From Sphingobacteriales bacterium JAD_PAG50586_3 (GTDB lineage: Bacteria; Bacteroidota; Bacteroidia; CAMBQF01): DNA of 64,000 nt. Below are positions 1,441 through 61,740 of this stretch, in pieces. The position numbers were made by a program, and so were the translations under genes. The stretch is from NCBI GenBank assembly GCA_023213195.1, contig CP096135.1, positions 3,282,842-3,346,841 on the forward strand, in the 5' to 3' direction. Positions within the stretch are counted from its first letter, which is position 1, and each line of letters opens with the position of its first letter. The notes under the pieces are model-generated. The model made no database searches and was not told the origin of the DNA. It was given only the letters and a program-made list of their open reading frames with translations.

Positions 1441-3424
1441 ATGAAAAAAGTAGCCCTGATAGTAGTTATTGTATTTGTAGCCGTGTTCGCTATGTTTTGC
1501 GGGCCGGGCAAGGGCGATACCAAGCAGGGCGGAGAACTTACCACCTTTGCAGGATTAAGCGATACCGTTAGCTATGTGGGCATAAACACCTGCAAGCAAT
1601 GTCACCAGGATATTTACAATACCTACATGCAAACCGGCATGGGGCAGTCGTTTGATAACGCTACACACGCCAAAAGCAAGGGGAAGTTTGAAGATGCCAA
1701 AGTGCTGTACGATAAATTCTCTGACCTATACTACAAACCCTACTGGAAAGGCGACACACTTAAAGTAACTGAGTTCCGCTTATCGGGCAACGATACCGTT
1801 TACAAACGGGTGCAGGCTGTTAGCTACATTGTAGGTTCGGGGCAACATACCAATTCGCACATCATTAATGTAAAAGGCTACTTATACCAGGCCCCATTTA
1901 CTTTTTACGCCCAACAAGGCAGGCTTGATTTACCCCGGGCTTTGAGAACGGCCACAACACGCGGTTTGGCAGGGCTATTGGCTTGGAGTGCATGAGCTGC
2001 CACAACGCCTACCCTAAGTTTGTTATGGGGTCGGAAAACAAGTATACCGATGTGCCCCAGGGCATAGACTGCGAGCGTTGCCACGGGCCGGGCGGCGAGC
2101 ATGTGCGCCGCAAACAAATGGGCGAAAATATTGATACATCAAAATACATAGACTACTCTATTGTAAATCCCGGCAAGCTTAGTGCCGACTTGCAATTCCA
2201 GATATGCCAGCGCTGCCATTTGCAGGGCAATGCCATACTTAAAAACGGTAAATCGTTTTTTGATTTTAAGCCCGGTATGCAGCTAAGCGAGGTAATGGAT
2301 GTGTATCTGCCCCGCTACAAAAATGCCGACCACGATTTTATTATGGCATCGCATGCCGATAGGTTAAAGCAAAGCCAATGCTTTGTAGTATCGGCAAAAA
2401 AATGCCAATAAAAACAGCCTGCGCCCATACAAAAACGCCATGACCTGCGTTACCTGCCACAACCCGCACGTAACCTCTAAAAACCTGGGTGATGGGTATT
2501 TTAATACCAAATGCCAGAACTGCCATACAGCCCCAAAACAAACTACCTGCACAGCGCCGCAAGCCAAGCTTGATGCGGCTAAAAACAACTGTGTAAGCTG
2601 CCACATGCCACGGTCGGGTTCTTCAGATATTCCGCACGTTACCATACACGACCATTATATACGCAAACCCATAGACAAAAAAGAACTGAAGGGCATTAAA
2701 GAGTTTGTGGGCCTTAGCTTGTATCAATAACCCCACCCCTACCCCACTATCTAAGGCTATGGCCTACATAAACCAGTACGAGAAGTTTGAGAATAAGCCC
2801 TATTTACTGGATAGTGCCTGGTTTTACCTGCAAAAAGGTGGTGATGATATGTTTGTGCCCCTTATTCAGTATTACTACATAAAAGGTGATTATGCGGCAG
2901 TAGTAAACGAGGTAAGTAAGGCAGGCAAGGATAAGCTATTGACCCAAAAACTCATTAAAAAATCGTATACAAATGTCGATGGTTGGACAGCCTACCGCAT
3001 TGGCGAAGCATACTACAATACAGGAGTATTTAACGAAGCCTACGTATTCTTTCAGCATGCTGTTAAGCTAACGCCACATTACCCCGATTTTAAAAACAAG
3101 TTAGCTACAACAGCTTTAGTATTAGATAAAAAAGACGAAGCCAAAAAGCTGTTTGAAGACCTTATAGTTGAGAACCCCGGTTTTGCCCCGGCCTACAGCA
3201 ACCTAGGCTTTATATACCTACAAGCGGGTAACGATACCAAGGCCGAAATATTGTATGACCAAGCCCTTGCGCTAGACCCGGATTATGAGCAGGCTTTGCT
3301 TAACAAAGCAGGACTATATTTCTTTAGGAATCAACCCGAAAAAGCCAAGCCGTATTTGCAGCGTGCGCTAAAGCTAAACCCCAACAACAGTAGGGTTAAA
3401 GACATGCTAAAAGCCACCATTTAA
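1441..3424 (+). CDS. multihaem c-type cytochrome with TPR domain (three frameshifts here)
   Basis: The reconstructed protein has about 660 residues. It starts with a signal anchor or lipoprotein-like leader (Cys at residue 20). Seven CxxCH haem sites follow: CKQCH (residues 51-55), CMSCH, CERCH, CQRCH, CVTCH, CQNCH and CVSCH. The C-terminal third holds TPR repeats (FAPAYSNLGFIYLQAGN, YEQALLNKAGLYFF). The family (cytochrome c554-like plus TPR) is periplasmic or envelope-bound and moves electrons. The partner is unknown. The frame breaks at a C4 run (1933-1936, one C missing), an A7 run (2396-2402, one A too many) and CCTTAG (2712-2717, where CCTGG would restore the frame). I read these as consensus errors, because haem motifs continue across each break. 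It follows the acetyltransferase with no gap. Confidence 0.8.
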
Positions 3425-3474: not shown

Positions 3475-4796
3475 ATGAAGAAAGTACTTATACTGGCTTA
3501 TGATTTTCCACCGTACGTATCTGTGGGTGCCCTGCGCCCCCATAGTTGGTATAAGTATTTTCCCGAGTCGGGCATATATCCTGTTGTTGTTACCCGCCAA
3601 TGGGGCAATAAATACAAAAGCAACCTTGACTATATAGCCGCTGGCGATTCTACCAATGTTATTGAAGAAGTTGGCGAACACGGCACAATATTACGTGCCC
3701 CTTACAAGCCCAATTTTGCCAATAGGCTGCTTTTAAAGTATGGCGATAGTAAATACTCATTGTTAAGAAAAGGAGTATCTGCCTATTACGAGATTATACA
3801 ATACCTAACCCATAAAGGCCCTAAAGCAAGCTTGTTTTATGCTGCTGATGAATATTTGAAGAATAACAAGGTTGATTGTATTATTGCTACTGCCGAGCCT
3901 TATGTTTTACTTAAATATGCCAGCGCTTTGGGTAAAAAGCATAACACCCCTGGATAGCTGATTACCGTGACCCATGGTCGCAAAACATTAATGTTTACAA
4001 AAACATTATCCTTAAAAATTATTACAATTGGGTAGAAAAAAATAGTTTCTTCGGCATCAGCAATAATAACAGTATCTGATTTTTTTGAAAGGAAAATTAA
4101 AAGCCTGTTACCCAACAACAAATACTACATATTGCCCAATGGGTTCGACCCGCAAGCCATAGAAAAAGCCGCAGGTGTGCAACAAAACAGCGATGTGTTT
4201 TCTATTGGCTTTGTAGGCACTATATTGGAGTGGCATCCTATACACGGTTTTTAAAAACCATATCAGAATTTATTGCGCAAAACCCAGATAAGCCTGTTAA
4301 AGTAAACTTTTATGGTATAAATACTGAAGATAATATACGGGATATTATAGCTGAATTTCCTAATCTTTCTAATGTCGTTTTAATACACCCTAAGCTGAAT
4401 AACGATTTATTAATTGCCGAGATTACTAAAAACAATGTAATGGCGTTATTCAACTACTACTCATATATGGGAACCAAAATATATGATTATATTGGCATTA
4501 AGCGCCAAGTATTATTATGCTTTGCTGATGATGCTGAAGCTAATGAATTAAAAGATAAGCTATACAATTTAAAAGAAGACGTGCCCGGCGCACCGCAACT
4601 GCAAAGCGAGTTGCTAAAAGAAACAAACGCTGGCATATTAGTTAAAGATAAAGAACATTTAAAAACAGTATTAACAGATTTGTATGTTGTTTTTAAAGAG
4701 AATGGAAATATTCCATGCAACTCTGTAAATACCGACCGGTTTTCCAGAAAAATACAAACGGAAAAACTGGCAGCTATAATAAATACAATTGCTTAG
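3475..4796 (+). CDS. glycosyltransferase, GT4-like (three frameshifts here)
   Basis: The reconstructed protein has about 440 residues. It opens with KKVLILAYDFPP and the RPHSWYKYF and PVVVTR blocks, typical of family-4-like glycosyltransferases of capsule and O-antigen loci. An ADYRDPWSQN acceptor-domain motif and an ILPNGFDPQ donor-domain turn follow. It resembles the minus-strand protein at 7334-8617 (FFPPANIAG, ADYRDEWNS-like DYRDEW, IYNGYDEDDF), so the two are paralogues. Breaks lie at C4 3947-3950 (one C missing), A7 4036-4042 (one extra) and T5 4248-4252 (one missing). The protein is probably cytoplasmic or peripheral to the inner membrane. Sugar and acceptor are unknown. The HisH-like gene starts 21 bases later. 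Confidence 0.8.
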
Positions 4797-4817
4797 TGTA
4801 CTAAAATTGCGAATAGA

Positions 4818-5438
4818 ATGCACGGAAAAGTAGTAATAATAGATTGTGGAATGGGCAACCTTTTTTCTGTAAAAAAGAAATTCAGGAAACTTGGGGGCGA
4901 TATTACTGTAACATCAGACCCGGCAGAAATTAATAGTGCCGATAAGATTGTATTGCCCGGTGTAGGGCACTTTGGCAAAGCAATGGATAATCTGAGAACC
5001 CTGAATTTATTAGACACTTTAAATGAGAATGTGCTAATAAAAAAGAAACCTATATTAGGTATTTGTTTGGGTATGCAACTAATGGCGAAAAGAAGTGAAG
5101 AGGGCAATGCTGAAGGCTTAGGCTGGTTTGATGCAGAGGTTATACACTTTGATGTTAGCGATAAATTGCGATACAAAATACCCCATACAGGATGGAACCA
5201 AATTACAAACGCAAAAGATAGTATGTTGATGAAAGACATACCCGATGCGTCTGAGTTTTACTTTGTCCACTCGTACCATTTTAAGTGCAATAACCAGCAC
5301 GATGTTTTGAACCTTACAGAATATGAATACAATTTTCCGTCTGCTGTAGAAAAAGATAATATTTTTGGTGTGCAATACCACCCTGAAAAAAGCCACGAAG
5401 TAGGAGTTAAATTATTAAATAATTTTATTGAACTATAA
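4818..5438 (+). CDS. HisH-type glutamine amidotransferase of surface-sugar amidation (WbuY-like)
   Basis: This 206-residue class I glutaminase resembles HisH. It has the nucleophile Cys83 in GICLGMQL, His188 and Glu190 in YHPEKS, and the oxyanion-strand motif PGVGHFG. HisH releases ammonia from glutamine and passes it to a partner. Here it sits with a HisF-like and a PP-loop amidotransferase gene between glycosyltransferases, with no other his genes. I therefore infer that it feeds ammonia into acetamidino-sugar synthesis, as in bacterial O-antigen loci, rather than histidine synthesis. Its stop and the next start share one base (TAATG), which indicates translational coupling. The gene is intact. 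Confidence 0.85.
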   Translation: MHGKVVIIDCGMGNLFSVKKKFRKLGGDITVTSDPAEINSADKIVLPGVGHFGKAMDNLRTLNLLDTLNENVLIKKKPILGICLGMQLMAKRSEEGNAEGLGWFDAEVIHFDVSDKLRYKIPHTGWNQITNAKDSMLMKDIPDASEFYFVHSYHFKCNNQHDVLNLTEYEYNFPSAVEKDNIFGVQYHPEKSHEVGVKLLNNFIEL

Positions 5439-22309: not shown

Positions 22310-22763
22310 TTCCGCCCGGATGAATGACTTCATCCATTCGGACGGGCTTGGCACCCGATTCCTGATGGGTTATTTAGGAAAGATCCCGTATCAAGTACGG
22401 GATGACAGTAGCAGTACTGCGAAAAGTAACCACCCCGTTTTGGCTTTTGCCAAAACACCCCTCCTTAAAAAGGAGGGGACTTAAAACAAAACATAGTTAA
22501 GTAAACCGAAAGCATCTTTGAATTAAGCTCTGTCGGTAGGTTATACCCAAACTAACTCGCTTTAACCCCTTTCTGCACAACAGAGAGGGGTTAAGGTGTT
22601 TCTTTTAAACGAAAAGTGAAAAACTAAAAATGAAAAATTGTAACCACAACGCCGTGAGTAATAAAAAATACCCTCTCCCGTCTGTCGCCCTTAGCGACAT
22701 CCACCTACTGACGATTAATGTCAGCACAGGCTCTCAATGAGAGGGACCTTTAAAATTAACTTA

Positions 22764-23195
22764 CGAAAACGGGTTTTCGGACTAGATGCTGTAAGGGTTG
22801 GAGATTTTGCTTTATTACTTTTTGCTTGTCCAAAAAGTAACCAAAAAAGACACCACGAAAACCAACCTGAAATTTCGCCTTTCGCACAGCTCTACCCTAC
22901 TCGGTTTCCGCGAAATTTCGGGTTCGAACTTTTCGTGGACAACCCACGCACTGCTTGTTACAAGGATAAAAATGAGGCGCGAAAACGGGTTGTCGGGCTA
23001 CATGCTGTAAGGAAAAGCCCCCACCCAACCCTCCCCTTGAAGGGAGGGCTTAAAAACAGGCGCGAAAATGGGTTATCGGGCTACATGCTGTAGGCTTTGA
23101 GGTACAAAAAGACTCCCTCGCCCTTCGCCCCCCTCTTAGAGGGGAATTTTAAAACAGGGTGCGAAAACGAGTTGTTGGGCTACATGCTGTAGGGG
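22764..23195 (+). repeat. four copies of a 36-nt repeat (subfamily A)
   Basis: Units at 22764, 22977, 23059 and 23159 share CGAAAACGGGTTGTCGG and GCTACATGCTGTA, all in the same orientation, 82 to 213 bases apart. Each ends in a small CTACA-TGC-TGTAG fold. Spacers are unequal and hold other hairpins, so this is not a CRISPR array. Three related units lie at 47158-47447. Confidence 0.75.
22811..22960 (+). repeat. structured repeat element S, copy 1
   Basis: Hairpin TTACTTTTTG-CTTGTC-CAAAAAGTAA (22815-22840). Then an outer stem CCACGAAAA (22853-22861) with TTTTCGTGG (22930-22938) encloses a 14-pair stem (22865-22878 with 22910-22923, containing GAAATTTCGC) and a 31-base loop. Copy 2 at 43387 keeps the plan with different stem bases. 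Confidence 0.75.
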
Positions 23196-36085: not shown

Positions 36086-38960
36086 ATGCAAAAGTATTCG
36101 CTCACAATTGCAATTGTACTATTTTTAAGCCTGCTAAACCTAAAAGCCGAGACATACCAAGGCGCACCTACTAAAGGAAAAGTTTACGGCAAAATTACCG
36201 ATGCCAAAACCGGAGAGCCATTATTTGGCGTAGTTGTTACCCTTGAAGGTAGCGGCACCGGTGTAACAACCGACTTTGAAGGCGCTTATAGCCTTGTTGG
36301 CCTTGCCCCCGGAACCAACAAAATAAAATTTAAGCTATTATCGTATAAAGAAAAGGTGGTAGAAGTTGCCATGGTTGGTAACGAACCCATATCGCTTAAC
36401 ATTACGCTGGAAGATGTAGCTACCGACCTTGGCCCTGTTGAAGTGGTAGGCAGCTACAAACAAGAGAGTGTGGCATCTTTGTTAATTGACCAAAAGAAAG
36501 CCGTTGCCATATCAGACGGTATATCTGCCGATGCTATAAAACGTACCCCTGACAATAACACCAGCGAGGTAATGAAACGCGTTAGTGGCGCATCGGTACA
36601 AGACAACCGCTTTGCTATTATCCGCGGCCTTAACGACCGTTACAACATTGCCTTTTTAAATGGTGCGCCGCTACCTAGTACAGAGAGCGACCGCAGGGCT
36701 TTTGCCTTCGACATATTTCCATCAAACATGGTAGATAAGCTGGTTATTACCAAAACTGCTACCCCAGACCTGCCTGCCGATTTTGCCGGTGGCGTTATCA
36801 ATGTTATTACACGCGATATACCCGAAGAAAACTTTTATAATATAGGCGGCAGCATTGGCTACAACGCTATTACCACTTTTAAAGACCGTGCTTATTACCA
36901 GGGCGGAAAAACCGATTGGTTGGGCTTTGACGATGGTACACGCGCTTTACCGGGCAGCATTCCTGATGTTCAAACCTATAAAACCGCTACCACAGCCGGA
37001 GACTCATCAAAATTATTTTGGAGTAAAGACTTTACCAATAACTGGGCTACTAAGCGCCAAAAATCAGCAGCGCCAAACGGCTCGTTCCAGTTTTCTTTAG
37101 GTCAGAAAATAGAGGGAGAAAACAACCAGTTAGGTATTGTGTTTGCGGCATCGTACAACAACAGCTACCGCTTTAGTAATGTTACCCGCAACCAATATGA
37201 TGTGCTGGACAATAATACGTTGCTACGCACTTATAATGACAGCATGCACAAGCACGAGATTTTGGGTGGCGTGCTATTAAACATAGGCTACAAAATTGGC
37301 GACAATAACAAAATAGCTATAAAAAATATTTACTCTATAAACAGCGAAGACCAAGCTGTTCTACGTTCGGGCTTAACCAACGTAAACGATACGTTTGCTG
37401 TGCAACAGGTGCGCAACACCGCATACTGGTACCAACAAAACCAACTAGTTGCCAACCAGGTGGTAGGCGAGCATTACGCATCTAAAATAGGGTTGCGTGT
37501 AAAGTGGACCGGCGGCTACAGCCATGCGGGCCGTATTATGCCAGATTTCCGCCGTGTGTCTTACGCCCGTGCTTATGATTTGCTAAACCCTGAAAACACT
37601 ACCGGAACGTATACCGCACAAATTGGTAACCAGGTTCAGTTAGAGCAAGCAGGCCGTTTCTTCTCTACCCTATCTGAAGACCAATATAGCGGTACGTATG
37701 AGTTTAGCCTGCCATTTAAATTTATGAATGGTAAAAACCTGGAGACAAACTTTAAGGCCGGTGGCTTTAACCAATTCCGCACGCGTACATTCTCTGCCCG
37801 TTCTTTCGGCTATGTGTTTAAAACCGGTGGCGGCTTAAATAACTCTTACAAGCAAGGCACATTAGATACTATTTTTAGTCCTGATAATTTTGTTTATAAC
37901 CGTTTTTATATAGACGATGCCACCAACCCTACCGATGCCTACGATGCAAACTCTACCTTGCATGCAGGCTTTGTAATGTTTGACCAACGCATTGCTAAAA
38001 AAATACGCACGGTTTGGGGTGTACGTTTTGAGAACTTTAACCAAGGTACTTAATTCAAGCAACTCTAATGGCGACCCGTTAAAAATTAATACTACCAAAA
38101 ACGATTGGTTACCATCGTTAAACTTCACGTATGAGTTGAATGCGAAAACCAACCTGCGTTTTTCAGCATCAAAAACCATCTCTCGTCCAGAGTTTAGAGA
38201 GATTGCCCCATTTGCCTTTTACGACTTTAACCTTGATGCTGTTGTGGCCGGTAACCCCGATTTGCAACGCGCTTCTATAGGCAACTTTGATGTACGTTAT
38301 GAATACTACCCAACGGGTGGCGAATTAATATCAGCATCGGTATTCTACAAAACATTTAAAAACCCTATTGAGCTTATAAACGAGCCTAACGTAGGTGCGG
38401 GTAGCCGTAAGTTTGGCTACTCTAACGCCCCATCGGCCCAAAACTATGGTTTTGAGGTTGAGATACGTAAAAACTTTGCTTTTATTGATAGCGCTGCCAG
38501 CACATCGTTCTGGGGCAACCTGTTGTTCTTTGGTAACTTCTCTTACATAGCATCGCAGGTAGATTTATCAAACTTTGGCGAGGCCGGAACAGGCACCCGC
38601 CCGTTACAGGGTCAATCGCCATTTATTATAAACACCGGCTTGCAGTTTAACGAGCCTAAAACCAATATTGGCTTTAGCGTATTGTTTAACCGTGTAGGCC
38701 GCCGTATTGCTTATGTTGGTAACGTACAGGTGCCTAATATTTACGAGAACCCACGTTCTATCCTTGACTTCCAGATAAGCAAGAAGTTTTACAAAATGCT
38801 GGACGTTAAGTTTACTTTAGGCGATGTACTTGCTCAAAACCTGACCTTTTACCAAGACATGAACAACAACAAGAAGTTTGACCGCAAAGGTGGCGATAAC
38901 ATCATATTCGACTACTCGTACGGTTTAAACGCATCGTTTGGGTTAAGCCTGAAGTTTTAG
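36086..38960 (+). CDS. TonB-dependent receptor with CarboxypepD_reg-like domain (one frameshift here)
   Basis: About 957 residues: a signal peptide (LTIAIVLFLSLLNLKAE), a carboxypeptidase-regulatory-like domain (GKVYGKITDAKTGEPLFGVVV), a plug domain (VSGASVQDNRFAIIRGLNDRYN; VDKLVITKTATPDLPADFAGG) and a long beta-barrel ending in FGLSLKF, with the C-terminal aromatic of outer-membrane proteins. The plug block IIRGLNDRYN and PADFAGG is typical of Bacteroidota receptors distinct from SusC, and no SusD follows. The frame breaks at CCAAGG, 38041-38046. Reading CCAGG gives NFNQVLNSSNSNG. A T9SS-exported protein gene follows 332 bases downstream and may act with it. The substrate is unknown. Confidence 0.88.
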
Positions 38961-39292
38961 GTATGAGTGCTTAGATTTGAGGGGTGAGTAAAAAAAATGC
39001 TCTACCATTCAAACAAAATGCTTTTGGGCTGTGTTACATAATCACAACCAGTACAAAAAGCTAACCTGCTACCTACGATAAACATAATTATAGCAACAAG
39101 GCTAACGCCTTAAAGCAATAAGACCAAAACGCCACCCTCGGGTGGCGTTTTGGTTTATATCCAGCCTTAACTATAGCGCAACCTTCTTAACATTGAATAC
39201 ACACTCTTATGACTTTTTAGTAAAGCGGGCTTAACCTGAACAACATACTGTAGTTGGACTTTTGTACCAACAAAACATCTGAAAAGAAACCC
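38961..39292. other. intergenic region between receptor and T9SS protein
   Basis: Apart from the strong terminator at 39123-39154 I see no gene. The promoter of the downstream gene is likely in 39180-39270, but no exact TAnnTTTG box was found. Confidence 0.5.
39123..39154 (+). terminator. rho-independent terminator
   Basis: ACCAAAACGCCACC-CTCG-GGTGGCGTTTTGGT, a perfect 14-pair stem with T's at the 3' side. It separates the TonB receptor gene from the T9SS protein gene. Confidence 0.85.
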
Positions 39293-41219
39293 ATGAAAAA
39301 AATTTTTACCCTTCTTGCGGCAATCATTACAGCTAATGTAGCTTTTGGTCAGGCCGTAGCAACCCTAAGCGGCGAGATTACCGCTAACCGTACCCTTAAC
39401 AACGATACTATCTACTTTCTTGATGGTTTTGTTTATGTTAAAAACGGTGCTACAATTACTATTGAACCGGGCACTATTATTAAAGGTGTATCGGGCGAGC
39501 GTTCTACGCTTATTATTACCCGCGGCTCTAAAATTAATGCTGCCGGTACTAAAAACCAACCTATTGTATTTACATCAGACAAAGTAGCAGGCGACCGTAA
39601 CCCAGGCGATTGGGGTGGTATTGTTCTATTAGGCAAAGCCCGCATTAACCGTTCTGCCGACTGTACTACCTGCCCGGGTGCTGCTATTGCAGCTAACGAA
39701 GCCGGTATACAAACCAACATAGAGGGCGACCTTGACAATGCAAATGGTGATGGTCTTTACGGAGGCAACGACGATACCGACAACTCTGGCACCATGACTT
39801 ATGTTCGTATAGAATATGCGGGTGTTGTAATTAACACAGGTAACGAAATTAATGGCTTTACACTTGGTGCTGTTGGTAGCGGCACTACAATTAACAACAT
39901 ACAGGTTAGCTACGCTAACGATGACTCTTTTGAGTGGTTTGGCGGTACTGTTAGCGCTAAAAACCTAATATCATTAGGTGCTATTGACGATGACTTTGAT
40001 ACCGACTTTGGTTTTACAGGTAAAATTCAATTTGCTGTTGCCCAACGCGACTCTAACAACTACGATACAGGTAGCGGCCCTACTACCAACGGTTTTGAAA
40101 GCGATAACGATGGCGGCCCAACTTTTAACAACCCACGTACAGCCCCTGTGTTTTCTAACGTAACCCTTGTTGGCCCATTGGCAAACGGAGTTGCTCTTCA
40201 ACAATCAAACTCTTTCCAAAATGCTGCACGTCTTCGCCGCAATACCTTAACATCTGTATTTAACTCTGTATTTATGGGTTTCCCTACAGGTATATTGGTT
40301 GATGGTGCTGGTTCTACCGCTGCTTACCTTGGCGATACCTTAAGGTTGAAAAACAATATATCTGCAGGTGCAACAGTATCAGACATACGTTCTACTGTAG
40401 GTGCTAGCGATGTATTGGTTAAAACTAAGTTTGAAGGACCAGATGCTTGCGATACACTTGATGCAACGGCTGGTATTTTAACCGCCCCATTTAACTATGG
40501 CAACCCAAACTTTTTACCTGCTGCCAACAGCCCTGCCTTAACTGGTGGTTCTTTTACTGATAGCTATGTAAGTGGTAACTTCTTTACCCCAACTACTTTC
40601 CGTGGTGCTTTTGGTACTATTAACGGTACTGTGTACCAGTGGGATGAGTGCTGGGCTAAATACAACCCACAAAACGAAAACTACACTACTCCGGGTATAA
40701 ACTACCTAGATGTTGTTGCCGGTTTTTCTACCAACGCAGTGTTAAACGTTGCTGACTTTACTAACTCGTCAACAAACGCTACAGCCTATGCCTGGGATTT
40801 TGGTGATGGTCAAACATCTACAGAAGCTTTCCCATCGCACACTTACCCTAACCAAAACGGTACTTACCAAGGTAACTTTAATTGCTTACCAACCATGCGG
40901 TACAGATACTGTTACCAACACTGTACAAATTATTGTTATTGGTGTTAGCGAATATGCCAATGTATTAGGTGTTGTGGTTTACCCAAACCCAGCCCAAGAC
41001 CTTGCCAACATTAACTTTACCTTGCCAACTGCTGAAAATGTAACATTAAACGTTTACGACCTTGCCGGTAAAATGGTAAGCAACCAAACAATTGGTAAAC
41101 TAGCAGCCGGTAAGCAAAATATTGAAGTAAACACATCAACCCTTGATGCAGGTATTTACTTTGTACGCATTGCCGCAGGCAACATAAACCAAACCGTACG
41201 CATTGCCGTAACTAAATAA
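39293..41219 (+). CDS. T9SS-exported surface protein with PKD domain (one frameshift here)
   Basis: About 641 residues: a signal peptide (KIFTLLAAIITANVAFGQ), a right-handed beta-helix-like body (NGATITIEPGTIIKG, GDWGGIVLLGKA, NPGDWGG), a PKD domain ([20 protein letters not shown]) and a C-terminal type A sorting domain (VVVYPNPAQD, LNVYDLAGKMV, LDAGIYFVRI). It should cross the outer membrane through the type IX system and be anchored or released. The frame breaks at CCAAGG, 40867-40872. CCAGG gives NGTYQVTLIAYQPCG. Its pairing with the TonB receptor upstream suggests a joint role, but no enzyme motif is visible. Confidence 0.87.
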
Positions 41220-42566: not shown

Positions 42567-43286
42567 TTAGTCGTACGATTCAAATTTGATGCGCTTACGG
42601 TCGTAGCCCATAGCTTCTAATCGCTGGCGGGCTTCTTTAAGCATCGCTGTCCACCCGCAAATATAGAACGTTGCGGGGCGTTTATCGGCAAAAATTTCTT
42701 CGTAGATGGTATGCACATACCCTGTGGGGCCATGCCAGGTGTCGGGCGTTTCGCGCGATAGTACGGGGTAGAAATGAAAATTATCGTGCTGTTCGTGCAG
42801 TTCCTGCATTTCTTTATGGTACAGAATATCGCCTTTGTAGCGGTTACCAAAAATCATGTGCATGCTCTTATAGGGCAGGTTTTGGTTGATGATATACAAT
42901 GCCATGGAACGCAACGGCGCAATGCCTGTTCCGGTGCATATAAAGCAAATATCATCATCTATACTATCGGGCAGGGTAAACTTGCCTATGGGCAGTGTTA
43001 AGTTAAGCTTAGAGCTCGGCTTTATATAATCGAACAAGTATCGGGTGCCGGCCCCTTCGGGGTTAAGCACAATACACAGTTCTATAATATTATCAAACGC
43101 CGGTGGCGATGCTATAGAATACTCCCTGTGGGTGTATTTGCCTTCTATGGGCATATCTACAATAGCAAACTGGCCTGCTTTAAAATCAAGCTTAACATCA
43201 TCGGGGTATTTGATGTAGAAACGGCGTACAACGTCGGTTTCGCTAACCACATCAAGAACATCGCACTCATAAAGTTGCTGTTTCAT
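42567..43286 (-). CDS. ferredoxin-NADP reductase-like flavoprotein
   Basis: This intact 239-residue protein has the FAD-binding barrel motif HREYSIAS (RxYS), GKFTLP, and the NAD(P)-binding half with CTGTGIAPLRSM, MIFGNRYKGDILY and YICGWTAMLKEAR. It ends FESYD. This matches the ferredoxin/flavodoxin-NADP reductase superfamily, which moves electrons between NAD(P)H and a small redox carrier through FAD. There is no 2Fe-2S domain, so a separate partner is needed. It is cytoplasmic and appears monocistronic. Confidence 0.88.
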   Translation of the reverse strand: MKQQLYECDVLDVVSETDVVRRFYIKYPDDVKLDFKAGQFAIVDMPIEGKYTHREYSIASPPAFDNIIELCIVLNPEGAGTRYLFDYIKPSSKLNLTLPIGKFTLPDSIDDDICFICTGTGIAPLRSMALYIINQNLPYKSMHMIFGNRYKGDILYHKEMQELHEQHDNFHFYPVLSRETPDTWHGPTGYVHTIYEEIFADKRPATFYICGWTAMLKEARQRLEAMGYDRKRIKFESYD

Positions 43287-43386
43287 AAGCCCATGGTTTT
43301 TGTTAAATATACCAATTAATAATTCAAAATGCAGAATGCATAATTATTTTGAATGGGTATAAATAGTTAATGCCAACCATTCTTTA

Positions 43387-43530
43387 TTCATTACTTTTTG
43401 CTTGTCCAAAAAGTAACCAAAAAAGACACCACGCCCAAAAACACGGCGATTTTGCTCTCGCACTTCCAAACCGCACTAATTGCCATGCAAAATCTTGTGT
43501 TCACACCGGGCGTGGACATGCCTCGCACCT
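43387..43530 (+). repeat. structured repeat element S, copy 2
   Basis: Hairpin TTACTTTTTG-CTTGTC-CAAAAAGTAA (43391-43416, identical to copy 1). The outer stem is CCACGCCC (43429-43436) with GGGCGTGG (43508-43515). The inner stem is GATTTTGC (43448-43455) with GCAAAATC (43487-43494). The loop is 31 bases, as in copy 1, and shares TCGCAC. Stem bases differ from copy 1 yet pair fully. Confidence 0.75.
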
Positions 43531-43620
43531 ATTAGAATGTATATTAAATATCTCACTTTATTAAGAGAGCGTAAATCAATTATATTTTAATTGTGAAAAA
43601 TTTCTTTGAATTACCCACTT

Positions 43621-43650
43621 CATCTTTCAGATTACTTCACAAACTCGTAA
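43621..43650. repeat. direct repeat of the monooxygenase 3' end, distal copy
   Basis: Matches 43991-44020 at 26 of 30 bases, including GATTACTT-ACAAACTCGTAA. On the minus strand it reads as the last codons YEFVK plus stop, with one synonymous change. Confidence 0.7.
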
Positions 43651-43655
43651 AACGT

Positions 43656-43982
43656 TTATTCTTCATACAAACCAAAAGGGTAAATAACTTCAAACCTCTC
43701 ATGGTTTTCTCCTTTAAGTAAAACCTGAACCAATCCCTTATCACTAAAAGCAATTGATTTGATATGTCGCATAAAATCATCAAAAGGAAAGTGGTTATAT
43801 GCCCCAATTAAAACCCTACCCACAAAATATTTATCTCCATCAAAGTTATTTGGTTGTTGAGTTACATCAAGTAAATTAAGTTTTCTCTTACCATCATAAT
43901 AACTAAAAGAATTTATCTTTTCTATACTCTCATCCGGTTCAGCCGGCCCCAATACTATAATAAGGTTGGTTACATTACTCAT
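43656..43982 (-). CDS. small protein of unknown function, flanked by direct repeats
   Basis: An intact 108-residue frame, without signal or membrane segments (NVTNLIIVLGPAEPDESIEKI; NNFDGDKYFVGRVLIGAYNHFPFDDFMRHIKSI). I do not recognise a family. The overall look (short, acidic, soluble, alone between duplicated gene ends) is compatible with a cargo or immunity-like gene, but this is a guess. It lies 19 bases after the stop of the flavin monooxygenase gene on the same strand. A second copy of that gene's 3' end lies just beyond its own stop. Confidence 0.6.
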   Translation of the reverse strand: MSNVTNLIIVLGPAEPDESIEKINSFSYYDGKRKLNLLDVTQQPNNFDGDKYFVGRVLIGAYNHFPFDDFMRHIKSIAFSDKGLVQVLLKGENHERFEVIYPFGLYEE

Positions 43983-43990
43983 AGTACTTT

Positions 43991-44020
43991 CAAATTTCGG
44001 ATTACTTTACAAACTCGTAA
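43991..44020. repeat. direct repeat of the monooxygenase 3' end, native copy
   Basis: The last codons and stop of the monooxygenase gene plus 11 bases. Partner of 43621-43650. Confidence 0.7.
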
Positions 44021-45459
44021 GCACTTGGCTTTATGCGGCGCATTTTTAGCCACATGGTGTAGGTAAGTTGCGGCCATACTGTTGTATTGCGTCCGTTGGC
44101 GGCAATGTACCAGCTGCGGCAGCCTGTTGCCCAAACGGTATGGGTTAGTTTTTGTTGTAGCTCTTCATTGTATTTCTTCTGCACCTCGGGCTTAACATCC
44201 ATAAACTTAGCCTTGCGTTGTGCCAGCTTTTTAAGGCTATCCAGTATATAGTTAACCTGGCTTTCTATTACAAAAATCATAGAGTTATGGCCCAAGCCTG
44301 TGTTAGGGCCTATTAGGAAAAACAGGTTAGGGTAGCCAGTAACGGTAGTGCCAAAATAGGCTTCGGGGCCTTCTTTCCAGTCTTCGGCCAATATGCGTCC
44401 TCCCCTACCCTTTACTACAAAATCAACCGGGGCATCGGCGGCTTTAAAACCGGTGGCTAATACAATAGCATCGGCCTGGTATTGGTTACCATCAGCAGTA
44501 AAAATACTGTTACCCTCTACCTTGCTTATTCCTGTAGTAATCAGGTCTACATTTTTACGCAGCAATGCAGGATAATACTCTTTACTGGGGGTAATGCGCT
44601 TGCAACCCATGGTGTAGTTGGGTATCAGCTTCTCCTTTAACGCGGGGTCTTTTATTTTTTTATTAATGAATTTAACCACCATGCCCTGCACCATTTTATT
44701 AGCGCGGGGGCGGGTAAATATAAGGGTACCTATCAACTCATTCTCCCAATACCATTTCCAACGTAACATGCGTTGGGTAAAGGGCAGTATGCGAAACATC
44801 TTCTTTTCCCACTCTTTCATGGGTCTGTCGGCTTTGGGAATTACCCACGGGGCCGAGCGCTGAAACACCATTAGCTGCTCCACATCTTTAGCAATGGCAG
44901 GTACAATTTGTACCGCACTAGCGCCGGTGCCTACTACTGCTACTTTTTTGCCTTTATAATCGAACGTGCTATCCCACTCTGACGAATGGAACACACGCCC
45001 TTGAAAACCATCTAAACCCGGAATATTTGGTATTTGCGGTCGATTTAAGGGCCCAAGGGCGTTGATAACCACATTAGCCGTAAGCGTGCTTCCGTCTTTA
45101 ATATTAAGGGTCCACATACCTGTTGCTTCGTCAAAGCTACCGCCGGTAACTTCGGTATTCAGCCTTACATATTTTGCCAAGCCGTACTTCTCTACACAAT
45201 GGCGGGTGTAATCTAGAATTTCCTGCTGGTTGGCAAACATGCGGCTCCAGTTAGGATTAGGCTCAAAAGAGAAAGAATATAGGTGCGATGATATATCGCA
45301 AGCCGCGCCGGGGTAAATATTATCGCGCCAGGTGCCGCCTATTGTAGAGCCACGTTCTGCAATAATAAAGTTGGTATTGCCTTGTTTTAGCAGCTTTATG
45401 GCCATGCCTATACCGGCAAAGCCTGTGCCTATAATAATGATAGTGTGAGAGTTCTTCAT
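44002..45459 (-). CDS. flavin-containing monooxygenase, Baeyer-Villiger type
   Basis: This 485-residue protein has the FAD-binding Rossmann motif GTGFAGIGMA, GGTWRDNIYPGAACD, the family fingerprint FQGRVFHSSEWD (FxGxxxHxxxW), the NADPH-binding motif GTGASAVQ and the late ATGFKAAD block. Such enzymes insert oxygen next to a ketone or oxidise N/S atoms, using NADPH and O2. I chose ATG 45459 (KNSHTIIIIGTG). The frame stays open far upstream through non-coding sequence. Its exact 3' end is duplicated 370 bases downstream. The substrate is unknown. Confidence 0.9.
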   Translation of the reverse strand: MKNSHTIIIIGTGFAGIGMAIKLLKQGNTNFIIAERGSTIGGTWRDNIYPGAACDISSHLYSFSFEPNPNWSRMFANQQEILDYTRHCVEKYGLAKYVRLNTEVTGGSFDEATGMWTLNIKDGSTLTANVVINALGPLNRPQIPNIPGLDGFQGRVFHSSEWDSTFDYKGKKVAVVGTGASAVQIVPAIAKDVEQLMVFQRSAPWVIPKADRPMKEWEKKMFRILPFTQRMLRWKWYWENELIGTLIFTRPRANKMVQGMVVKFINKKIKDPALKEKLIPNYTMGCKRITPSKEYYPALLRKNVDLITTGISKVEGNSIFTADGNQYQADAIVLATGFKAADAPVDFVVKGRGGRILAEDWKEGPEAYFGTTVTGYPNLFFLIGPNTGLGHNSMIFVIESQVNYILDSLKKLAQRKAKFMDVKPEVQKKYNEELQQKLTHTVWATGCRSWYIAANGRNTTVWPQLTYTMWLKMRRIKPSAYEFVK

Positions 45460-45572
45460 CTGAATAAATGCAATATTAATTAAAAGAGGAGAGAGAAGCG
45501 AGGAAGAGAAGAGAAAAACAAAAAATCTATATGCACCTCTCTCTTCCAGAAGCGGAACAATAGCTTTATAAA

Positions 45573-45603
45573 AAAAGGCTGCACCATTTAGGTGCAGCCT
45601 TTT
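45573..45603 (-). terminator. rho-independent terminator of the NmrA-like gene
   Basis: GGCTGCACC-ATTTA-GGTGCAGCC, nine perfect pairs extended by A-T pairs, with a T run on the minus strand, about 90 bases past the stop at 45692. Confidence 0.8.
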
Positions 45604-45607
45604 CATG

Positions 45608-45680
45608 TAAAAATCCCTCGTCTTCCGACTTTGTCGGAATCCTGCCTGCGGCAGGCAGGCACTCCCTTTAGAAAGGGAAA
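45608..45680. repeat. bipartite hairpin repeat, copy 7
   Basis: AAATCCCTCG, inner hairpin TTCCGAC-TTT-GTCGGAA, an inserted CCTGCCTGC-GGCAGGCAGG palindrome, then CACTCCCTTTAG-AAAGGGA. Confidence 0.7.
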
Positions 45681-45691
45681 CCTTAAAAAAG

Positions 45692-46585
45692 TTACTGTGC
45701 ATTGTAAGCTGCGGCAAAGCCTTTGGCAAAATCTTCCAGCTTAACCTTGCCTAATTGCGCAGGCGGGTTGGCAAAAAAGTCGGCTTGCATAAGTCCGCTG
45801 CGTTGGCTTTTGCCCATAGCTACATAACCATCAACATTAGTTTTTGGTAAGCCTGCCTGCAACATGCCCTGTTCTGATTGTTCGTCGGTAAACAATACCC
45901 AAGGAGTACCGGGCTTGCCAATAGCATTGCCCAATACGGTAGCAACTTCTCCGTATGTCCTAACATCGCTGGCAATGTATTGAATACTGATGCCGGTAAA
46001 ATCAAGTTTTAATAACGCATCGGCAACCACATCGGCAATATCATTGGTATCCACCAATACAATTTTATCATCGGCACTGCCACCATTGCTACCCATAATG
46101 CCCGCATTTTTTATCAAGTTTATTTGGGCAAACAGGTTATAATAAAAGAATGATGGGCGCATAAACTTAGCGTTGATGCCTTCCAGTTTTAAAAGTTCTT
46201 CTTCTAAATAGCCAACACCATCTACAGGGCCAACGCCTTTGCGCAAATGCGCACCAATGCTGCTAAGTAGCACAACGTTTTTAATGCTGTTAGCTTTTAA
46301 GGCAGCTACATAGTTATTTGCTACCAGCTTTTGGTGGGTAAACCAATCGGGCGCGGCAAAGGTTGGGGGTATCATAAGGTATACCGCATCGGCACCGGTA
46401 AAAGCCTGGGTTAAAAACGCAGCATCATCAACCGAGCCAACGGCGGCTTTAGCGCCAAGGGCTTCAATATCGGCCACGCGGGCTGCTGTGCTGGTTATTA
46501 CGGTTACGGTGTGCCCGGCTGTTGTTAATTTTTCTACTACCGGTTTAGAAATATGGCCTATAGAGCCAGTTATTACATAGTTCAT
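45692..46585 (-). CDS. NmrA-like NAD(P)-binding oxidoreductase
   Basis: This intact 297-residue protein has the atypical SDR/NmrA start NYVITGSIGHISKPVVEKL (a GxxGxxx variant), DAVYLMIPPTF, VVLLSSIGAH and FMRPSFFYYN. It is related to azoreductase-like NmrA proteins (QorB, HSCARG type) that bind NADP and act as quinone reductases or redox sensors. It is divergent from an HxlR regulator with a shared control region, a common arrangement in which the regulator responds to quinones or aldehydes. A minus-strand TAACTTTG box at 46611-46618 probably drives it. Confidence 0.87.
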   Translation of the reverse strand: MNYVITGSIGHISKPVVEKLTTAGHTVTVITSTAARVADIEALGAKAAVGSVDDAAFLTQAFTGADAVYLMIPPTFAAPDWFTHQKLVANNYVAALKANSIKNVVLLSSIGAHLRKGVGPVDGVGYLEEELLKLEGINAKFMRPSFFYYNLFAQINLIKNAGIMGSNGGSADDKIVLVDTNDIADVVADALLKLDFTGISIQYIASDVRTYGEVATVLGNAIGKPGTPWVLFTDEQSEQGMLQAGLPKTNVDGYVAMGKSQRSGLMQADFFANPPAQLGKVKLEDFAKGFAAAYNAQ

Positions 46586-47582: not shown

Positions 47583-49590
47583 ATGTCAGAAGAGATTGAA
47601 AACACAACCGGTGCTGAAGGCACTGAAAACCAAGTAGCTGAAGCACCTGTTGCTGAAGTTACTCCGGAGGCTCCTGCAAAAGCAGCTCCAACCGCCCCAG
47701 CTGTACCAGACCCAAATTTTGACTGGAACGCTATAGGCAAAAAACAACAAAACTATACTGAGGCTGAAGTTGCATCGTACGACAAAAAGTATGAAGACAC
47801 TTTACGTTCTGTTATAGAGCACGATGTAACTATGGGCAAAGTAGTGGCTAAAACCACTAAAGAGCTTATTGTAAACATTGGCTACAAGTCTGACGGCGTT
47901 ATTTCGTTATCTGAAGTTCGTTACAACCCTGATATTGCAGTGGGCGACGAAATTGAGGTTTATGTAGAGCGTCAGGAAGATAAAAGCGGCCAGTTAGTAT
48001 TATCTCACAAAAAAGCCCGTTCGCTTAAATCGTGGGAGCGTATTAACCAAGCCCTTGAAAACGACGAAATCATTAAAGGTTACATCAAAAGCCGCACTAA
48101 AGGTGGTCTTATTGCCGAAATCTTCGGTGTTGAGGCTTTCTTACCAGGTTCTCAAATTGATGTTAAGCCTATCCGCGATTACGACGTTTACGTTGGTAAA
48201 ACCATGGAATTCAAAGTTGTTAAAATCAACAACGAATTTAAAAACGTGGTTGTATCGCACAAAGCCCTTATCGAGGCTGAGCTTGAGCAACAAAAAGTTG
48301 ACATCATGTCTAAGCTTGAGAAAGGCTAAGGTATTGGAAGGTACCGTTAAAAACATCACTTCGTACGGTGTATTCATCGACCTTGGTGGCGTTGACGGAC
48401 TTATCCACATTACCGACCTATCTTGGGGCCGCATAAACCACCCTGAAGAAATCGTTAAACTTGACGAGAAAATCCAGGTGGTTATCCTTGATTTTGACGA
48501 AGGCAAAAAACGTATTGCCCTTGGTTTAAAACAACTACAAGCTCACCCTTGGGATGCTTTAAGCGCAGACTTAAAAGTAGGCGACAAAGTAAAAGGCAAA
48601 GTAGTAGTTTTAGCCGATTACGGTGCGTTTGTAGAAGTTGCAGCCGGCGTAGAAGGCTTGATTCACGTATCAGAAATGTCGTGGAGCCAGCACTTACGTT
48701 CTGCCCAAGACTTCTTAAAAGTAGGCGACGAGGTAGAAGCTGTAGTATTGACTTTAGACCGCGACGAACGCAAAATGTCGTTAGGTATGAAACAATTGCT
48801 GCCTAACCCTTGGGACGAAATTGAAGCCCGTTACCCAGTTAACTCTCGCCACAAAGGTGTAGTTCGCAACTTTACTAACTTCGGCATTTTTGTTGAGTTA
48901 GAAGAGGGTGTAGACGGTTTGGTTCACATTTCTGACCTTTCTTGGTCTAAGAAAATTAAGCACCCATCAGAATTTACCAAAGTAGGTGAAGAACTAGAGG
49001 TTGTTGTATTAGAAATAGACAAAGAAAACCGTCGTTTAAGCTTAGGCCACAAACAACTGGAAGAAAACCCATGGGAAGTATTCTCAACCATCTTTACAGA
49101 AGGTTCAGTACACCAGGGCACTGTTACCAGCTTTGTTGACAAAGGCGCTATCGTATCGTTACCATACGGTGTAGAAGGCTTTGCCCCAATGAAACACCTT
49201 GTTAAAGAAGACAAAACCACTGCTAAAGTTGAAGAAACACTTGACTTTAAAGTGATTGAGTTCTCTAAAGAAAACAAGAAAATTGTTGTTTCTCATACTA
49301 AACTTCATGATGATGCCGTAGCTATTGCTAAGTCTGACGATGAAGGTACTACTGATGCTAAAGGCAAAGAAGTAAAAGCTAAAAAAGCTGTTAAGAAAAC
49401 AACAGACAACTCTGAGAAATCTACCCTTGGTGATTTTGATGTGTTAGCTGATTTGAAATCTAAAATGGAGAAAAGCGAAGGCGCTACCAAAGCTAAAGCC
49501 CCAAAGGCTAAAGTAGAAGAAGCACCTGCCGCCGACGAAGCCCCGGAAGCACCTGCTGCTGAAGAAGGCGAAGCTCCTGCAGCTGAATAA
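47583..49590 (+). CDS. rpsA: 30S ribosomal protein S1 (one frameshift here)
   Basis: S1 binds mRNA on the 30S subunit and helps initiation. The reconstructed protein has about 668 residues, with six S1 (OB-fold) repeats. The clearest are VLEGTVKNITSYGVFIDLGG, KGKVVVLADYGAFVEV, HKGVVRNFTNFGIFVEL and HQGTVTSFVDKGAIVSL, most followed by GLIHISDLSW-like turns. An acidic, Ala/Glu-rich N-terminal leader and tail flank them, as in other Bacteroidota. The frame breaks at CTAAGG, 48326-48331. CCAGG gives EKGQVLEG, the family sequence, so this is a consensus error. A terminator follows at 49612. Confidence 0.95.
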
Positions 49591-58813: not shown

Positions 58814-61740
58814 TTCCCCTCGTACTTTTTCAATAAGTTGAAGTATTCATCTTTAGTCAACTCATGGTTTGGCCTTCCATCGCCATAGATAATATAGCCA
58901 TAGTATTTAAGGTTTTCATCGTAACCGTATAGAGCAGCAGTATACAACACTATCCGTGTTCCGGTAGTATTGTTCTCAAAGTCTTTCTTCATTTTCTCCA
59001 TAGCTTCAAAGCGTGCCTTTTCAATGGCTTCTTTCTTCAGCTTCTCTTCTAGTTCTTTCTTGGCTTTTTCTTCGGCCTCTTTCTTCAATTTCTCCTCTGC
59101 CTCAAACTTGGCTTTGTCTTCTGCCTCTTTTTTCAGCTTCTCTTCCAGTTCTTTCTTAGCTTTTTCTTCGGCCTCTTTCTTCAATTTCTCCTCTGCCTCA
59201 AACTTGGCTTTGTCTTCTGCCTCTTTTTTCAGCTTCTCTTCCAGTTCTTTCTTGGCCTTCTCTTCAGCCTCTTTCTTCAATTTCTCCTCCGCTTCGAACT
59301 TAGCTTTGTCTTCGGCTTCTTTTTTCAGCTTCTCTTCTAACTCTTTCTTAGCTTTTTCCTCAGCCTCTTTCTTCAATTTCTCCTCCGCTTCGAACTTAGC
59401 TTTATCCTCCGCCTCTTTCTTCAATTTTTCTTCAGCTTCGAACTTAGCTTTATCCTCAGCTTCTTTCTTAAGCTTCTCTTCCAGTTCCTTCTTAGCTTTT
59501 TCCTCCGCCTCTTTCTTCAATTTCTCCTCTGCCTCGAACTTGGCTTTGTCTTCGGCCTCTTTTTTCAGCTTTTCTTCTAATTCCTTTTTAGCCTTCTCTT
59601 CGGCCTCTTTTTTCAATTTCTCCTCAGCCTCAAACTTGGCTTTGTCTTCGACTTCTTTCTTCAACTTCTCCTCGGCCTCAAACTTGGCTTTATCTTCTGC
59701 CTCTTTCTTCAATTTTTCTTCAGCTTCGAGCTTAGCTTTATCCTCAGCTTCTTTCTTAAGCTTCTCTTCCAGCTCTTTCTTAGCCTTCTCTTCGGCTTCT
59801 TTCTTCAATTTCTCCTCTGCCTCAAACTTAGCTTTGTCTTCGGCTTCCTTCTTCAGCTTCTCTTCCAGCTCTTTTTTAGCTTTTTCCTCGGCCTCTTTCT
59901 TCAATTTCTCCTCTGCCTCAAACTTGGCTTTGTCTTCCGCTTCTTTTTTCAGCTTCTCTTCCAGTTCAAATTTGGCTTTGTCTTCTGCCTCTTTCTTCAA
60001 TTTTTCTTCAGCTTCGAACTTAGCTTTATCCTCAGCTTCTTTCTTAAGCTTCTCTTCTAGCTCTTTCTTAGCCTTCTCTTCGGCTTCTTTCTTCAATTTT
60101 TCTTCGGCCTCGAACTTAGCTTTGTCCTCGGCTTCTTTTTTCAGCTTCTCTTCTAACTCTTTCTTAGCTTTTTCCTCAGCCTCTTTCTTCAATTTCTCCT
60201 CGGCCTCAAACTTGGCTTTGTCTTCCGCTTCTTTTTTCAGCTTTTCTTCCAGCTCTTTTTTAGCTTTTTCCTCGGCCTCTTTCTTCAATTTCTCCTCTGC
60301 CTCAAACTTGGCTTTGTCTTCGGCCTCTTTTTTCAGCTTCTCTTCTAACTCTTTCTTAGCTTTTTCCTCGGCTTCTTTTTTAAGCTTCTCCTCCAGTTCT
60401 TTCTTGGCTTTTTCTTCGGCCTCTTTTTTCAACTTCTCCTCTGCCTCAAACTTGGCTTTGTCTTCGGCCTCTTTTTTCAGCTTTTCTTCTAACTCTTTCT
60501 TAGCTTTTTCCTCGGCTTCTTTTTTAAGCTTCTCCTCCAGTTCTTTCTTGGCTTTTTCTTCGGCCTCTTTTTTCAACTTCTCCTCTGCCTCAAACTTGGC
60601 TTTGTCTTCGGCCTCTTTTTTCAGCTTCTCTTCTAACTCTTTCTTAGCTTTTTCCTCGGCCTCTTTTTTCAGCTTCTCTTCTAACTCTTTCTTAGCTTTT
60701 TCCTCGGCCTCTTTCTTCAATTTCTCCTCGGCTTCGAACTTAGCTTTGTCTTCGGCTTCCTTCTTCAGCTTCTCTTCTAACTCTTTCTTGGCTTTTTCCT
60801 CGGCTTCCTTCTTCAATTTCTCCTCGGCTTCTTTTTTCAACTTCTCCTCTGCTTCGAACTTAGCTTTGTCTTCGGCTTCTTTTTTCAGCTTTTCTTCCAG
60901 TTCTTTCTTAGCCTTCTCCTCCGCTTCTTTCTTCAGCTTTTCTTCCAGTTCTTTCTTAGCCTTCTCCTCGGCCTCTTTTTTCAGCTTCTCTTCCAACTCT
61001 TTCTTAGCTTTTTCCTCCGCTTCTTTCTTCAGTTTCTCCTCGGCCTCAAACTTGGCTTTGTCTTCGGCTTCTTTTTTCAGCTTTTCTTCCAGTTCTTTCT
61101 TAGCCTTCTCCTCCGCTTCTTTCTTCAGTTTTTCTTCCAGCTCTTTTTTAGCTTTTTCCTCAGCATCCCTTTTCACCTTGTCGCCATTCTCGGCACGCTT
61201 GGTTACAATCTCAGCCTTAAAGTCTTTTATCTCGGTTTTAGATTCCTTCCTTATGCCCTCGTCAAAGTCGAAGCCATTAACCTCGTCAGAGTATTTTATC
61301 TTCTCTACCGGGTGTGTAAGGTTCTTATTGAAGCCTTCGGCCCCCTCAAATATGCTTACGTTTAACTCGTAGGGTACAAAGCCTTCTTTTATCCTGTCTT
61401 TAGATACGGTAGTGTTAATCATAACGCGCTGCGTTATAAAACCGGCTTTGGTTATAATAAGTGTGTATTCCGACTGATATTCAAGAGTAACATCAAACTT
61501 GCCATTGGCTGATGGTTTTACCTCTTTGCCGCCTTTTCCGTTTTTTTGAATGGTAATGGTAACCCCTTCTGTAGTACCTTTGTCTAGGGAAATGATACCA
61601 CTCACCTCAAGTCCCTCATCCTGGGCCTTAAGCGTTACAGCAATTAAAAGCAGCGCTAGAGTAAGCGCGTATGTTATAAAGCGTATCAGTGGTTCAAAAT
61701 ACGGTTGGTATAAAACAACCTTTATACCCCAATATAACAA
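58810..61740 (-). CDS. exported protein with a giant charged helical repeat domain
   Basis: A 976-residue protein: a signal peptide (FITYALTLALLLIAVTLKAQ, ending near residue 40), a carboxypeptidase-regulatory/transthyretin-like domain (residues 45-125; SGIISLDKGTTEGVTITIQK), a linker, 91 octads of the type [AL]E[ED]K[LA]K[KF]E at residues 193-920, and a 56-residue C-terminal domain (RIVLYTAALYGYDENLKYYG). Octads follow a 32-residue super-repeat. The period of 8 and opposite charges at every i to i+4 position suggest a single alpha-helix rod rather than a heptad coiled coil. The start is uncertain, because an N-region of 20 residues precedes the signal. Copy number may be affected by assembly. 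Confidence 0.85.
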   Translation of the reverse strand: MLYWGIKVVLYQPYFEPLIRFITYALTLALLLIAVTLKAQDEGLEVSGIISLDKGTTEGVTITIQKNGKGGKEVKPSANGKFDVTLEYQSEYTLIITKAGFITQRVMINTTVSKDRIKEGFVPYELNVSIFEGAEGFNKNLTHPVEKIKYSDEVNGFDFDEGIRKESKTEIKDFKAEIVTKRAENGDKVKRDAEEKAKKELEEKLKKEAEEKAKKELEEKLKKEAEDKAKFEAEEKLKKEAEEKAKKELEEKLKKEAEEKAKKELEEKLKKEAEEKAKKELEEKLKKEAEDKAKFEAEEKLKKEAEEKLKKEAEEKAKKELEEKLKKEAEDKAKFEAEEKLKKEAEEKAKKELEEKLKKEAEEKAKKELEEKLKKEAEDKAKFEAEEKLKKEAEEKAKKELEEKLKKEAEEKAKKELEEKLKKEAEDKAKFEAEEKLKKEAEEKAKKELEEKLKKEAEEKAKKELEEKLKKEAEDKAKFEAEEKLKKEAEEKAKKELEEKLKKEAEDKAKFEAEEKLKKEAEEKAKKELEEKLKKEAEDKAKFEAEEKLKKEAEEKAKKELEEKLKKEAEDKAKFEAEEKLKKEAEDKAKFELEEKLKKEAEDKAKFEAEEKLKKEAEEKAKKELEEKLKKEAEDKAKFEAEEKLKKEAEEKAKKELEEKLKKEAEDKAKLEAEEKLKKEAEDKAKFEAEEKLKKEVEDKAKFEAEEKLKKEAEEKAKKELEEKLKKEAEDKAKFEAEEKLKKEAEEKAKKELEEKLKKEAEDKAKFEAEEKLKKEAEDKAKFEAEEKLKKEAEEKAKKELEEKLKKEAEDKAKFEAEEKLKKEAEEKAKKELEEKLKKEAEDKAKFEAEEKLKKEAEEKAKKELEEKLKKEAEDKAKFEAEEKLKKEAEEKAKKELEEKLKKEAIEKARFEAMEKMKKDFENNTTGTRIVLYTAALYGYDENLKYYGYIIYGDGRPNHELTKDEYFNLLKKYEGN
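58981..61164 (-). repeat. 24-bp tandem repeat array (about 91 units)
   Basis: The DNA of the octad region. Units vary at synonymous positions, so most of the variation is silent while the protein motif stays fixed. A 96-bp higher-order period is visible. Confidence 0.85.

Follow-up and report, generated by a model that had tools for sequence, protein, structure and literature searches.

A short AT-rich gene between two copies of a monooxygenase gene end: a candidate orphan immunity gene, probably acquired by short-homology recombination

In the genome of Sphingobacteriales bacterium JAD_PAG50586_3, the 3' end of a gene for a flavin-containing monooxygenase (FMO) is present twice, and the two copies enclose a short AT-rich gene of 108 codons that both available congeners lack. 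The explanation that we prefer, with moderate confidence, is that this is a horizontally acquired orphan immunity gene that was inserted behind the FMO stop codon by illegitimate recombination over a short stretch of homology. An immunity gene that has no toxin gene beside it is difficult to identify as such, and if the explanation is correct, direct repeats of host-gene 3' ends could help to locate more genes of this kind.

A repeated gene end around a short AT-rich gene

The window, by which we mean the whole stretch of 64,000 nucleotides that was analysed, carries on its minus strand, in this order, an NmrA-like gene, the FMO gene, the 108-codon gene, the second copy of the FMO end, a dispersed repeat and a reductase gene. 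The features that matter here are as follows.

44002..45729, minus strand: FMO gene (PF13738, PF00743), a flavin-containing monooxygenase gene of which the 3' end is duplicated
43989-44020, minus strand: repeat copy 1, the last FMO codons, the stop codon and 13 nt 3' of the stop
43651..43988, minus strand: insert between the repeats, 338 bp, GC 0.322
43656..43982, minus strand: 108-codon gene, starting 19 nt past the FMO stop, GC 0.321
43619-43650, minus strand: repeat copy 2, downstream of the 108-codon gene, 28/32 identical to copy 1
43427..43448, minus strand: terminator-like hairpin with T-run, downstream of copy 2 and within the dispersed repeat 43380-43525
42567..43286, minus strand: reductase gene (NAD/FAD oxidoreductase), the next downstream gene, GC 45.4%

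The 32-nt copies lie 370 bp apart, and the FMO stop codon (44004-44002, minus strand) falls within copy 1. Copy 2 reads TFYEFVK-stop in the same frame as the stop of the 108-codon gene, but 3' of that stop. Only one of the four differences between the copies lies in the 19 bases through the stop, a GTA/GTG exchange that gives valine both ways, and the other three are in the 13 bases 3' of it. An earlier, sequence-only reading of this DNA had noticed that the FMO end reappears 370 bases away, past the 108-residue gene and with a synonymous coding change only, and this holds over the full 32 nt. The longest open reading frame of the FMO gene uses a TTG start, and similarity to the congener orthologues begins near 45456. 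The insert leaves the FMO gene intact and contains one open reading frame, the 108-codon gene, which is co-oriented with the FMO gene and has no integrase match. Its GC content of 0.322 compares with 0.457 for the FMO gene, and a GC content of 0.321 or lower is found in 24 of 453 sampled genes, the 108-codon gene counted.

Chance can be set aside as the source of the repeat, both by randomised downstream sequences and by a survey of gene ends. The best match to the 32-nt FMO tail in the 2.5 kb downstream has 28 identical positions, as compared to 18-24 in 1000 first-order Markov resamples, of which none thus exceeded 24/32. A conserved C-terminal FMO peptide as the sole cause was also rejected: it accounts for the likeness of orthologues, as among six FMO genes of another genus, in which the last 21 nt are conserved to 90-100%, but not for a second copy in the same genome. 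For FMO homologues from 14 other genomes of the class, all of other genera, the tails gave 18-22 matches.

The survey took in the window and a further 400 kb from its genome, 464 kb in all or about a tenth of the whole, with 423 gene ends. Eight gene ends scored at least 24/32, the FMO gene being one of them. Two of the other matches, L030 (32/32) and L034 (26), concern adjacent genes with a common C-terminal coding end; L037 (26) encodes a protein with internal repetition; the match of the gene at window 22737-23093 (28) is a dispersed repeat inside an open reading frame; that of L042 (25) is a repeat 3' of the stop which is present at nine places in the sample; and that of L041 (27) is, in our reading, a low-complexity stretch 3' of the stop. 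For L044 (26), where the match is mostly 3' of the stop and A-rich, no explanation was found; the end region of this gene (1949-3157) recurs about 490 bp past its stop with 26/32 identity, and at only two places in the 464 kb. A second locus that clearly shows the arrangement of the FMO gene was not seen in the 464-kb sample.

A Pfam scan of the neighbourhood included 13 proteins of the 36.1-51.9 kb region, taken from 39 open reading frames of at least 60 aa at 36-52 kb. Besides the FMO and the reductase, these neighbours include NmrA-like and HxlR proteins, ribosomal protein S1, a TonB receptor and others. Neither a toxin gene beside the 108-codon gene nor an integrase or recombinase was found among the 13 proteins. 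Terminator-like sites number two in the stretch, against 0.7 expected. The dispersed repeat downstream of copy 2, of some 146 bp (43380-43525; also 22811-22857), gives nine BLAST pieces in the 464 kb, query included, and a piece of it is also present in congener G001 (L012 8911-9044; 90% over 134 columns). Dispersed repeats of this type may interrupt assemblies.

The same site in congeners

The genus, family and order samples all consist of the same three genomes, which are that of the window (G000) and those of two congeners (G001 and G002). The FMO genes of the three species are about 15% apart, the G002 orthologue having 84% nucleotide identity to the gene in the window. With up to two mismatches allowed, the FMO tail pattern has two places in G000, one in G002 and none in G001, where the contig ends within the FMO gene. 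The three true places have no mismatches, and a reversed-pattern control gave four places in G000 and one in G002.

In G002, the position 8 nt past the FMO stop is occupied by a different, unrelated gene of 106 codons (GC 0.321), which is co-oriented with the FMO gene and has what we read as a lipoprotein-like start. It had no match in plasmids or viral contigs, and its family matches are only weak. The contig (C136) ends 40 bp past this gene, and these 40 bp contain no second tail copy; the G002 orthologue of the reductase starts at the end of a separate contig. The sequence past copy 2 and that past the start of the G002 gene show no detectable likeness, with a local alignment score of 22 where shuffled sequences give a mean of 20.2 and a maximum of 27. 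Just before the tail, the FMO genes of the window and G002 agree at 29 of 50 positions, the lowest value of any full 50-column block inside the gene; a comparable stretch in the six genes of another genus is 71-94% identical. This diverged stretch may be a mark of replaced sequence, although it is too short to decide the matter.

The sequence-only reading had proposed a search for relatives with an empty site and a single gene end. The 108-codon gene is indeed absent from both congeners, being present only in the window's genome of the three, and the tail in G002 is single. An empty site with both flanks on one contig was not seen in the two congeners, the contigs of which end early. The opposite outcome, with all relatives carrying both repeats and the gene, was not encountered either, as the gene is lacking in two of two congeners.

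The 108-residue protein and its relatives

A scan of genome contigs yielded three relatives of the 108-residue protein with 29-35% identity.

L005: Pedobacter frigiditerrae, 35% identity
L006 and L007, the two Chitinophaga relatives: Chitinophaga sp. CB10, 30% identity, and Chitinophaga sp. sic0106, 29% identity

The family alignment has 23 invariant columns, which include the motifs MSNVTNLI and IGAY. The distribution of the family is rare and patchy: out of 395 class genomes, a search with the single sequence matched two, one of these matches being weak (E 9.8e-4, residues 35-89) and inside a longer open reading frame that by eye is short-chain dehydrogenase-like, and a profile search found 1 of 395 genomes of a phylum sample. 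No model in Pfam, NCBIfam, PADLOC or PHROGs matches credibly or names the family. Cargo of a phage or plasmid was set aside as an explanation, since the 108-residue protein has no match in plasmid, phage or viral-contig collections; the DNA of 43300-43988 had none in phages, and a Chitinophaga relative none in plasmids.

An AlphaFold2 model built with four sequences (mean pLDDT 78.7) predicts a ferredoxin-like fold, which is a common arrangement. When folds were compared, the matches were of intermediate quality (best Z 7.2); they include PII-like proteins, Cas2, ribosomal protein S6 and others, and gave no informative assignment. Foldseek returned no match to the model at E <=0.001, and four sequence-profile matches in the PDB (E 0.55-0.66) were rejected as not credible.

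Two of the three relatives, those of Chitinophaga, are located among fragments of Rhs cores. The model of the Rhs-associated core (TIGR03696) matches L006:9-197 at the cut-off, L006:1797-1994 weakly (15.1 bits) and L007:3480-3719 above the cut-off, and Rhs-core segments are repeated within L006. In L006, an open stretch ending in GEGFDFTKEVKVSN has its stop 6 nt before the ATG of the relative; the matching stretch in L007, AGE*FDFTKQVNVAN*, has an internal stop and ends 2 nt before the ATG. This is the position where the C-terminus of a toxin would be expected, and it is by position that the stretch before the L006 relative may be taken as a toxin end; no toxin model matched this stretch, and its 29 aa had no plasmid or family match. 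L007 also holds a DUF2247 gene, presumably of an immunity-type family. L006 and L007 are close to each other and have common flanks, with 82% identity over 461 columns, and are therefore treated as a single case. Near the Pedobacter relative no Rhs gene was recognised by eye among open reading frames of at least 80 aa in 10 kb. A direct repeat (4808-4829 and 5317-5338; 82% over 22 nt) encloses this relative, and a third, weaker copy is at 4282-4303. The search for the protein family and its genomic contexts, which the earlier reading had advised, thus delivered three relatives, two of them in Rhs surroundings, without a family model that names them.

The flanks of the Chitinophaga relatives show a further resemblance to the FMO locus. 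In L006, the 3' end of a helix-turn-helix (HTH) gene (PF01381) is duplicated (46/49 bases) and flanks the relative on both sides, and in L007 a copy of the HTH end (39/45) is also present downstream of the relative. We read these copies as a parallel junction, at which a displaced end of an unrelated gene again goes with the small gene. They lend support to recombination at gene ends, as one independent case.

Origin and function of the insert

We propose that an AT-rich foreign gene would have entered directly 3' of the FMO stop codon, most likely via homology-facilitated illegitimate recombination anchored on a diverged FMO end that the donor would have carried in the incoming DNA. The junction would then have given rise to a further FMO 3' end, slightly diverged, beyond the insert, with the FMO coding end whole. 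Read-through of the FMO transcript, up to the hairpin at 43427-43448, probably serves to express the 108-codon gene, since this gene is co-oriented with the FMO gene and starts 19 nt past its stop. As suggested by the two related contexts in Chitinophaga, its product is most likely an orphan immunity protein, which would bind and neutralise the toxin domain at the C-terminus of a polymorphic toxin of the Rhs type, as used by competitors. Each element of this proposal belongs to a known type, and what is mildly unusual is that the gene sits by itself downstream of a metabolic gene. The copies in the window are 12.5% apart, close to the divergence of about 15% among the FMO genes of the three species. 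This may be compatible with one foreign copy, but it is weak evidence since the FMO gene is more strongly conserved in its tail than elsewhere, and an old duplication would equally yield 12.5%.

The main rival for the mechanism, which we regard as unlikely, is a site-specific cassette of which the 32-bp copies would be the left and right junctions. Such a cassette would fit the direct repeats and the regenerated gene end, and also the other short, AT-rich and co-oriented gene that G002 has at the same point; moreover, the rAID arrays, in the excerpts of their description that we draw on (PMC12247911), comprise co-oriented short genes of low GC, a recombinase and intergenic motifs that are conserved. 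Against it, no recombinase is encoded among the 13 neighbouring proteins scanned, the tail-pattern counts with up to two mismatches (two in the window's genome, one in G002, none in G001) reveal neither an array nor a second site, and four differences in 32 bases are more than expected for a fresh att pair. The G002 gene is not followed by a second tail copy either, within only 40 bp available. With neither a recombinase nor a second site found, illegitimate recombination is preferred over site-specific insertion. Of the two origins that the sequence-only reading had offered, insertion with a regenerated 3' end is the better one, in view of the AT-rich insert, the absence of the 108-codon gene from both congeners and the single tail in G002, even though a clean empty site was not found; its comparison to att sites is not borne out by the 13 proteins scanned, which include no integrase. 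The other origin, a remnant of a duplicated monooxygenase, has become less likely because only 32 bp are common and no further FMO sequence was found at copy 2.

The repeat could also be what is left of a tandem duplication, either of the FMO end alone or of FMO and the small gene together, that has since decayed; foreign DNA would not be required. Tandem duplications are common in principle, and the copies have diverged. The shortness of the common sequence (32 bp), the deviating composition of the intervening 338 bp (GC 0.322 vs 0.457) and the absence of the small gene from both congeners make this course of events very improbable. An alternative that concerns function only, and overlaps with any of the mechanisms, is that the acquired gene has a non-immunity product and that the Rhs context in Chitinophaga is coincidental. 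We consider this a real possibility, if the lesser one: no family model matches the protein, its predicted fold is generic and the Pedobacter relative has, by eye, no Rhs gene nearby, but the L006 and L007 relatives come closely after a stretch, open in the one and decayed in the other, that lies downstream of Rhs-core fragments, and the protein is small and its family rare.

Comparison with known systems

The nearest kind of gene is found in the orphan toxin-immunity modules of CDI and Rhs systems (PLoS Genet 2011, PMC3150448). As in the portions of that paper considered here, a small immunity-type gene occurs without its toxin, and the Chitinophaga relatives stand behind Rhs-core fragments; unlike in those portions, the 108-codon gene is found by itself after a gene of metabolism, and no Rhs gene was recognised in the scanned neighbourhood. 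In the Vibrio arrays of type VI secretion (T6SS) immunity genes, as far as the cited passages go, homology-facilitated illegitimate recombination was proposed for added effector-immunity modules (PMC5361080). The likeness is that an immunity gene would be gained by a proposed short-homology insertion, with no dedicated integration site; the site there is an effector gene, and here it is an unrelated monooxygenase gene.

Of the features of a site-specific 3'-end element, this locus has the direct repeats and the regenerated gene end, but no integrase match inside the element, the single open reading frame being that of 108 codons. Insertion with long target duplication in Helicobacter pylori, which is said to concern mainly restriction-modification genes and longer duplications, is similar in that an inserted gene lies between direct copies of the target sequence, and different in the kind of gene and the length of the copies.

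Among systems that collect orphan immunity genes, the rAID arrays are the nearest known (PMC12247911, in the excerpts mentioned above). The FMO locus shares with them a short gene of low GC, some 100 codons long, located on the strand of the preceding gene and with a repeat behind it; it differs in that there is a single gene, that a recombinase was not found and that what is repeated is the host gene's own end. The locus is not classed as an rAID array because neither of the two defining features tested was observed: the 13 proteins scanned in 36.1-51.9 kb include no tyrosine recombinase, and between the FMO gene (45.7% GC) and the reductase gene (45.4%) there is only one gene (32.1%), where the definition has at least two co-directional genes below 41% GC. 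As to conserved intergenic motifs, the locus has the 32-bp repeat, but this repeat is itself the FMO end.

A more far-reaching and decidedly doubtful idea is that the FMO 3' end serves as a recurrent docking point, at which different one-gene, integrase-less immunity cassettes would be exchanged between species, each bringing a copy of the gene end by which the host gene is restored. The site would then be a minimal, array-free counterpart of rAID, a comparison that is just as doubtful. If the 108-codon gene is a real stand-alone immunity gene, the presence of different genes past this FMO stop in two species would also make the route of entry accessible to a comparison of strains.

Other observations in the genome

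The gene for ribosomal protein S1 (window 47583-49590) is divided over two overlapping frames, and it encodes 667 aa in both congeners. Since the S1 gene is normally essential, the split is likely due to an indel error in the assembly. The 32-bp repeat is independent of this indel problem. The TonB receptor gene (36086-38960) and a PKD-domain gene (39254-41219) have apparent splits that resemble that of S1. Further along the window, at about 58869-61000, there is a long array of 24/48-nt repeats, with a period that is compatible with 8 or 16 codons.

The window's genome has four Rhs-core sites. These include two pairs of convergent Rhs-core matches that are 3-4 kb apart, at G000:C1:21575-24972 (L056) and 1546824-1550959 (L057). 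The pairs carry inverted copies (76% over 213 columns and 97% over 79), which could permit inversion. Beside the first pair, an open reading frame (L056 11588-12604) combines a weak Rhs-core match with a Tox-HNH-HHH domain.
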